Assembly: GCF_000482245.1 (NCBI RefSeq)
Contig: NZ_AWNH01000075.1
Location: 1 to 64,000 of the forward strand
Direction: 5' to 3'
Source: Leptolyngbya sp. Heron Island J
Lineage (GTDB): Bacteria > Cyanobacteriota > Cyanobacteriia > Phormidesmidales > Phormidesmidaceae
DNA length: 64,000 nucleotides
How positions within the stretch are numbered: position 1 is the first letter of the stretch; each line of letters begins with the position of its first letter. The translations under genes and the position numbers were made by a program. Shown here piece by piece: positions 25,819 to 38,635 of this stretch. Below the pieces are notes generated by a model that made no database searches, had not been told where the DNA came from, and saw nothing but the letters and a program-made list of their open reading frames with translations.

Positions 25819-25830
25819 TTTTGTTTACTG

Positions 25831-25856
25831 TAGGGGCATTGCATGCAATGCCCCTA
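25831..25856. repeat. Palindromic repeat centred on TTGCATGCAA, copy 1
   Basis: A perfect 26-bp palindrome, TAGGGGCATTGCA and its complement, in the psb28-moaB gap. Related copies lie at 26365-26404 and 28009-28036. Confidence 0.85.
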
Positions 25857-25865
25857 GGTTTGTCC

Positions 25866-26360
25866 ATGGCTCTCCCCCATCCCGATCCCGATTTTGTTCC
25901 AGCTGTCTGCGGTGTGCTTACCGTCAGTGATACCCGAACGGTGGACACTGATAAGAGTGGCCAGCTGATTAAGACCCGATTGCGGGAAGCGGGGCACCGA
26001 TTAGAGGTGTATCGGTTGGTGAAAGATGAGCCAGATCAGATTGCTGGCTTAGTGCAGCGGCTAACCTCGTCGGTGGATGTCATTATTTGCAATGGGGGCA
26101 CCGGGATCGCACCGAGGGATACTACCTATGATGCGATCGCAACGCTACTAGAAAAAGAAATTCCCGGCTTTGGCGAAATTTTTCGTCAGCTTAGCTATGC
26201 TGAAATTGGCGCTAGAGCGATAGCGTCTAGAGCTACAGCTGGTGTGTATTAATCTACCCTGCTGTTTTTGCTACCAGGGTCCAGCAATGCCGTCGCTCTA
26301 GCCATGGACGCGCTCATCTTGCCTGAATTACAGCACCTGGTACGACAGATGAAAGGTTAG
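25866..26360 (+). pseudogene. moaB: moaB (molybdopterin biosynthesis) interrupted by an in-frame stop
   Basis: MoaB/MogA-family proteins adenylylate molybdopterin before molybdenum insertion. Reading from ATG 25866, the family features are clear: GVLTVSDTR, the phosphate-binding NGGTGIAPRDTTYDAI and GARAIASRATAGVY. At 26250-26252 a TAA interrupts the frame after codon 128. The same frame then continues for 35 codons with the missing conserved end (LLFLLPGSSNAVALAMD), ending at TAG 26358-26360. A single change from CAA to TAA would explain it, since Gln or another residue is usual there. The truncated product lacks the substrate-binding PGSSNAV segment and is probably inactive unless the stop is read through or is a sequencing error. 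Confidence 0.85.
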
Positions 26361-26364
26361 GTAT

Positions 26365-26404
26365 GGCATTGTAGGGGCGTTGCATGCAACGCCCCTACAA
26401 TGCC
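26365..26404. repeat. Palindromic repeat centred on TTGCATGCAA, copy 2 (40-bp perfect)
   Basis: A perfect 40-bp inverted repeat with half-site GGCATTGTAGGGGCGTTGCA, five bases after the original moaB stop. It is an extended version of the copy at 25831-25856 and could form a very stable cruciform or RNA hairpin. Confidence 0.88.
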
Positions 26405-26508
26405 CAGCGTTTTCCACCCTATCCCTGAAGTCTCTTAATCGGTCCTTTACCTGTCACCTGGGCCTCCCCGTTATAGTGAGTCTTGATCAACTTTTTCGTT
26501 ATCGCAGA

Positions 26509-28008: not shown

Positions 28009-28036
28009 GTGGGGATGTTGCATGCAACGCCCCCAC
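28009..28036. repeat. Palindromic repeat centred on TTGCATGCAA, copy 3 (imperfect)
   Basis: GTGGGGATGTTGCA and TGCAACGCCCCCAC form an imperfect 28-bp palindrome between the exbB-type gene and the first exbD-type gene, with one G-T wobble and one mismatch per arm. Confidence 0.75.
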
Positions 28037-38531: not shown

Positions 38532-38635
38532 TGTGCTGGCTGAGGGCAGTGTTGTACCGTGACTGCCGGACTCTATAAAGTAATGTTAAGAAAGTAATGT
38601 TAAGCTCAAAATCCCTGGCTTTTTAATGTGTATTC

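Follow-up and report, generated by a model that had tools for sequence, protein, structure and literature searches.

An in-frame stop in an otherwise undamaged native moaB gene of Leptolyngbya sp. Heron Island J, in a family where damage to this gene goes with possession of a second MoaB

The first 64,000 nucleotides of contig C75 in the assembly of Leptolyngbya sp. Heron Island J (G000; 8.06 Mb, 119 contigs), hereafter the window, contain a MoaB-family gene on the forward strand (25866-26360) whose translation is interrupted by an in-frame TAA (Table 1). Is this a gene recently put out of use, an error of one assembly or a stop that the cell reads through, and which protein could stand in for it if the lesion is real? 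An earlier note on this DNA had described a moaB split by the stop with its conserved sequence kept on both sides, a frame that continues unshifted for 35 codons to a PGSSNAV end, and flanks that are otherwise undamaged. The translation agrees with this description, and neither piece carries further damage. A frameshift is ruled out as the cause of the split, as the reading frame runs unshifted past the TAA to the gene's own terminator, TAG at 26358-26360. A second copy of the same gene is also ruled out, since only two MoaB places were found in the genome; we refer to the window gene as type 1 and to the other MoaB as type 2.

Table 1 Features of the moaB locus, in positions of the window
Feature	Position	Strand	Remarks
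psb28-like gene, intact, 110 aa	25486..25818	+	ORF; 92% aa identity to congener G004
palindromic hairpin repeat, copy 1	25830..25856	.	ends 9 bases 5' of moaB ATG
moaB (type 1), first piece	25866..26249	+	128 codons from ATG; GGTG and PRD motifs; Asp where E. coli MoaB has Glu
in-frame TAA of type-1 moaB	26250..26252	+	congener codons: CAA 5/7, AAA 2/7
moaB (type 1), C-terminal piece	26253..26360	+	35 codons including PGSSNAV, and TAG
palindromic hairpin repeat, copy 2	26371..26397	.	just 3' of moaB stop

Profile searches assign the first piece to PF00994 (3.2e-25) and to the MoaB model TIGR02667 (1.9e-38, 131.7 bits), and in a family search of the genome the read-through frame covers positions 1-144 of the 144 in PF00994 (113.1 bits) with one internal TAA. 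Searched alone, the second piece matched no Pfam family; it gives weak matches near the C-terminal end of two MoaB models of NCBIfam, NF002947 (266-298 of 301, 1e-4) and TIGR02667 (125-151 of 163, 9.8e-4). The equivalog cut-off of TIGR02667 (222.4 bits) is reached neither by this first piece nor by the stop-free type-1 gene of congener G005, which scores 156.7 bits. By sequence, the best match of a congener type-1 MoaB among solved structures is 1y5e (2.2e-42), which we take to be the MoaB of Bacillus cereus, and a single-sequence structure prediction of the read-through protein was poor (pLDDT 39.7). The window frame reads VKDEP, and D54 is invariant in 9/9 aligned type-1 and type-2 proteins; it would correspond to Asp56 of P. 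furiosus MoaB, the alignment being of nine relatives. E. coli MoaB has a glutamate at the place aligned to this aspartate. According to passages of two papers, P. furiosus MoaB, with Asp, adenylylates molybdopterin and E. coli MoaB, with Glu there, is inactive (PMC3896444, PMC11656743). The PGSS stretch beyond the stop is invariant across the same nine relatives, which include both MoaB types, and the truncated protein, lacking this motif and the C-terminal 36 residues, is probably inactive.

The gene upstream, which by name we presume to be psb28, lies directly before type-1 moaB in all five relatives checked (G336, G028, G032, G004 and G007). The repeat GGGGC(A/G)TTGCATGCAA(C/T)GCCCC flanks moaB on both sides, with a third, weaker copy at 28009, and occurs in five copies (at most 4 mismatches) in the 359 kb of the genome that we examined, three of them within 2.2 kb here. 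The 420 bases that precede moaB in each of the seven congeners gave no copy at 4 mismatches or fewer; congener G003 has a similar hairpin copy at an equal distance after its moaB stop. RNA folding gives -20.8 kcal/mol for 25822-25885 (z -1.54; 15 of 200 shuffles as good) and -37.3 kcal/mol for 26357-26415 (z -7.88). The upstream copy may have reduced type-1 expression, which is a guess.

The type-1 gene is stop-free in all seven congeners (59 genomes searched besides G000), and the read-through frame is 84-89% identical to their proteins over residues 1-164 or nearly so. Since their codon at the stop is CAA in five and AAA in two, the TAA lies a single base from each of them, which bears out the claim of the earlier note that one change would restore glutamine and answers its call to look for CAA in close relatives. 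We compared the window with a 60-kb syntenic stretch of congener G004, whose 62 ORFs gave 56 matches, 50 of them at more than 55% identity. Stops are present in eight of these 50. Five of the eight are antisense to longer stop-free matches, and a sixth is antisense to one that has no stop, is about as long and is more similar (o7 against o35). A stop at 38624-38626 was considered as the mark of a second broken gene and ruled out, as it lies upstream of an intact ATG-started ORF; the remaining stop-bearing match is moaB. With seven of the eight explained away and moaB alone left, the window does not look error-ridden, and a general excess of broken genes in it is ruled out by this comparison.

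Codon statistics likewise resemble those of the congeners. Nei-Gojobori dN/dS between G000 and the seven congeners is 0.04-0.08 over the whole gene. Over the 35 codons after the stop dN is 0.026-0.089, compared to 0.013-0.130 among pairs of intact genes, and because dS in this stretch is either very high or saturated, dN/dS does not date the stop. Among columns with 93% conservation or more, G000 deviates at a single one, and two congeners have the same change. These statistics, with no decay in G000, fit a young lesion and fit a base error equally well.

If the lesion is real, molybdopterin adenylylation would have to fall to another protein, as the earlier note had predicted, and the genome does contain a candidate. 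PF00994 has four places in G000: the window moaB, CinA, a MoeA-like protein (best match MoeA, 361 bits against a cut-off of 440) and the type-2 MoaB on contig C119. The last is intact, with 176 residues and 51% identity to type 1; its 273.3 bits exceed the 222.4-bit cut-off of TIGR02667, and it retains the Asp at the catalytic position. The GGTG motif is present in both types. The search for a further mogA- or moaB-type gene that the note had proposed thus gave a MoaB; the PF00994 search of G000 gave no MogA, as the other two proteins of the family are CinA and the protein whose best match is MoeA. Molybdoenzymes, the other search that it proposed, are represented by an open reductase gene of 745 residues adjoining a transporter gene; we take the reductase to be NarB-like and its neighbor to be a transporter by name. 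Among NCBIfam models the reductase matches formate dehydrogenase and assimilatory nitrate reductase best, without reaching the cut-off of any. Reading frames are also open in moaA and moaE, which exceed the cut-offs of TIGR02666 and PF02391, respectively, and in moeA. The cofactor therefore still looks needed. In a wider sample of 388 genomes of the class, the matches listed for G335, which belongs to another family, include a single MoaB; it is type-2-like and exceeds the TIGR02667 cut-off, and its gene adjoins genes matching moaD, moaE and moaA, which supports a cofactor role for type-2-like MoaB; a TGA flagged in that gene proved to lie outside it, upstream of the open frame. We infer that it is the type-2 protein that adenylylates molybdopterin for nitrate reductase. 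Literature searches on moaB and mogA adenylyltransferase redundancy, and on moaB with moco biosynthesis, nitrate reductase and cyanobacteria, found no paper.

Type 2 is far closer across genera than are the native genes of this locus. At the DNA level the G000 gene is 91.8-92.7% identical to those of G336, G032 and G028, which belong to another genus (g2), whereas psb28 reaches 69-71% across three genomes and type 1 64-67% across two. Within the genus, against congener G007, the values are 91.8% for type 2, 83% for psb28 and 80% for type 1. This pattern argues that type 2 has spread horizontally between genera. No type-2 copy of more than 80% identity was found in plasmid records (86 records matched, the top-ranked at 63.9%). 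C-terminal remnants of type-2 moaB are also present, in G014:C2 (L096 6519-6663) and G012:C941:4285-4425, the former 92% identical to the C119 gene in DNA over 145 bases. Both genomes hold an intact type 2 as well, and acquired copies therefore seem to decay too.

A census of 63 genomes of the family, G000 included, searched with both MoaB types, shows how the two genes are distributed. Type 2 is present in ten genomes, from five of 14 genera. Among these carriers type 1 is intact in two (G007, G032), has an in-frame stop in two (TAA in G000, TAG in G336), is cut after about 85 residues in one (G028) and was not found in five (G012, G014, G022, G023, G029). In 47 of the 53 genomes that lack type 2, type 1 is free of stops and full-length or almost so; in one more (G328) it is divided between the ends of two contigs, and five (G017, G288, G299, G346, G381) gave no MoaB match, so loss also occurs without type 2. 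In genus g7 two genomes have type 1 only and two have type 2 only. Stop-free type 1 is thus found in 2/10 genomes with type 2 against 47/53 without (Fisher p 2.8e-5), and among genomes that keep type 1, with G328 left out, it is broken in 3/5 against 0/47 (p 4.5e-4). When G000 is left out because it prompted the question, the figures are 2/9 against 47/53 (p 1.0e-4) and 2/4 against 0/47 (p 0.0047); all these p values ignore shared ancestry and the missing data of incomplete genomes such as G029 (73% complete). Damage to the native type 1 goes with possession of type 2 in this family, kinship not being part of the statistic.

The second stop-bearing genome, Leptolyngbya sp. SIOISBB (G336), carries its TAG at the codon homologous to the TAA of G000, in a type-1 gene whose protein is 60% identical. 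The four other g2 genomes that hold this codon have GAA, GAG, AAA and CGA, all of them a single change away from a stop. In a simple model of mutation the chance of a second independent nonsense change at the same codon is 1-9%, depending on the ancestral codon and on transition bias, and the coincidence is suggestive, not strong. In a pattern scan of 84,980 species, with one genome each, SIOISBB gave the one other real stop at this codon; the scan used an exact pattern, which can miss divergent genes, in a loosened form, the stricter one missing G336, and its collection holds no contigs below 3,000 bases and may lack records of the window's own genome. A match in Erythrobacter was dropped, its codon at the site being TGG (Trp). 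G336 departs at two highly conserved columns, in the PRD motif; since two or more such departures are seen in 10 of 33 stop-free genes, these are no sign of decay on their own, and a decay signal at the conserved columns of G336 was dropped. The SIOISBB assembly was made with Canu from nanopore R9.5 reads, and the assembly section of its description names no polishing step (PMC7825088). Two 20-kb stretches of it show no frame breaks in matched genes other than the moaB stop, an interrupted nicO-like gene and stops in one match that is antisense to a stop-free gene.

The reading that we favor, at a probability of about 0.7, is a young nonsense mutation in the native type-1 moaB, which the acquired type 2 had made dispensable. 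Type 2 would have arrived horizontally, and before the damage to type 1, an order that is itself inferred; it is predicted to supply adenylylated molybdopterin and would so have relaxed selection on the native gene. A single nonsense substitution would then have inactivated type 1, giving displacement by a foreign relative at an early step. Against displacement stand the two carriers of type 2, G007 and G032, that keep an intact type 1. The three readings of the earlier note, a very young lesion, a sequencing error and a read-through site, fare unequally: the young lesion fits best, read-through is disfavored, and an error keeps a minor share of the probability. The TAA is carried by one assembly, and a base error in it, with the gene intact in the organism, would account for a lone substitution with no other damage and with codon statistics like those of the congeners. 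No other sense gene compared in the synteny with the 60 kb of G004 has such a stop, however, and errors should fall without regard to type 2, whereas the broken type-1 genes were all found in its carriers (3/5 against 0/47, or 2/4 with G000 set aside). We consider this explanation unlikely, although the least so among the alternatives.

Much less probable is a real lesion without compensation, in which C119 derives from a different organism, or its type 2 lacks activity, and molybdenum cofactor is lost from the strain. The contig is small, with hemB-like and Fur-like genes that appear incomplete and a truncated nicO-like gene, and the assembly is listed with 1.72% contamination; against this, the narB-like gene, moaA, moaE and moeA are all open, the composition of C119 falls within the range of G000 fragments and G007 has the same gene. 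By a small step more improbable still is that the stop is usefully read through or that the short protein has a role, with the SIOISBB stop at the same codon a case of convergence. Two lineages holding type 2 would then have independently stopped the same codon of the native moaB and kept the rest, because truncation there, or low-level read-through, is useful or least harmful where two kinds of MoaB subunit coexist; to this version, too, we give very little credence. TAA in G000 and TAG in G336 do fall on one codon, at the 1-9% chance given above, and the C-terminal codons remain conserved in both genomes. On the other side, a stop is found at this codon in none of the seven congeners and in none of the four other g2 genomes in which it is present, the exact-pattern scan of 84,980 species yielded SIOISBB alone besides the TGG codon, and the site is variable, with all four non-stop g2 codons one base from a stop. 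No suppressor anticodon was called either: 150 of 360 first-look tRNA candidates were scored, 54 matched and none of those 54 stretches gave a tta, cta or tca anticodon, in a list that is partial, as the number scored, the absence of any tRNA-Ile and the low-scoring, uncalled C115:40046-40116 indicate. A literature search on stop codon readthrough and moaB found no paper. The same survey showed 14 tRNA genes within 2.8 kb (G000:C115:39700-42500), some with low family scores (to 40 bits) and several with anticodons duplicated elsewhere in the genome, which may be a mobile tRNA array.

The contig that carries type 2 has 8,554 bases and encodes a WD40 protein, a short nicO-like piece, thrS, the type-2 moaB, folE, a COG0523/CobW-type GTPase, a hemB piece, a Fur-family piece and an aspartoacylase. 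Its His-rich GTPase matches ZigA/CobW models below their cut-offs, and the hemB-like and Fur-like genes look partial. A molybdenum-cofactor gene thus lies inside a zinc-homeostasis-like cluster (folE, thrS, COG0523-type GTPase). Near type-2 moaB, the nicO-like gene is truncated in G000 (L087 1854-2324) and interrupted in G336 (L102 6964-8743). The tetranucleotide profile of C119 is compatible with G000, 13 of 36 of the genome's own fragments scoring as low or lower; fragments of congeners and of other genera also score in this range, so composition does not prove that the contig belongs to the genome.

An apparent defect becomes, under displacement of the native moaB, a step of gene replacement, and the family offers its stages side by side: native gene only, both intact, native freshly broken, native cut short and acquired only. 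It therefore allows one to test how quickly decay of a housekeeping gene follows the arrival of a foreign homologue, and whether MoaB has a role in molybdenum cofactor synthesis in bacteria without MogA, a point that PMC3896444 defers to later work.

Three known systems invite comparison. Both MoaB types resemble the MoaB/MogA molybdopterin adenylyltransferase family (PF00994, TIGR02667) in their GGTG motif and Asp; the window copy differs in having lost, through the stop, its C-terminal 36 residues and the PGSS stretch. C119 resembles the clusters of Zur-type zinc limitation in having a COG0523-like GTPase, ThrS, FolE, a HemB piece and a Fur-family piece. Zur-linked HemB, ThrRS and COG0523 genes, WD40 neighbors of one COG0523 subfamily, and FolE2 are described in passages of PMC2770081. 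A possible difference from those clusters is that the FolE of C119 matches models of FolE (GTP cyclohydrolase I); moaB has no occurrence in the main text of PMC2770081. A literature search on moaB with cyanobacteria, zinc and folE found nothing relevant, and one on xenologous or pseudogene displacement, not joined with moaB, found only work on E. coli. The third system is xenologous displacement, in which a homologue acquired horizontally takes the place of a native gene. The locus resembles it in a foreign homologue of the same family, a damaged native gene, and relatives at intermediate and finished-looking stages. The acquired copy is much closer to other genera than are the neighboring native genes (91.8-92.7% against 69-71% and 64-67%), and damage to or loss of the native copy is concentrated in genomes that carry type 2 (stop-free in 2/10 against 47/53, kinship not being part of the statistic). 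It differs from xenologous displacement in general in that the native copy has been hit by one base and is otherwise complete, which implies that the stage seen here is a very early one.
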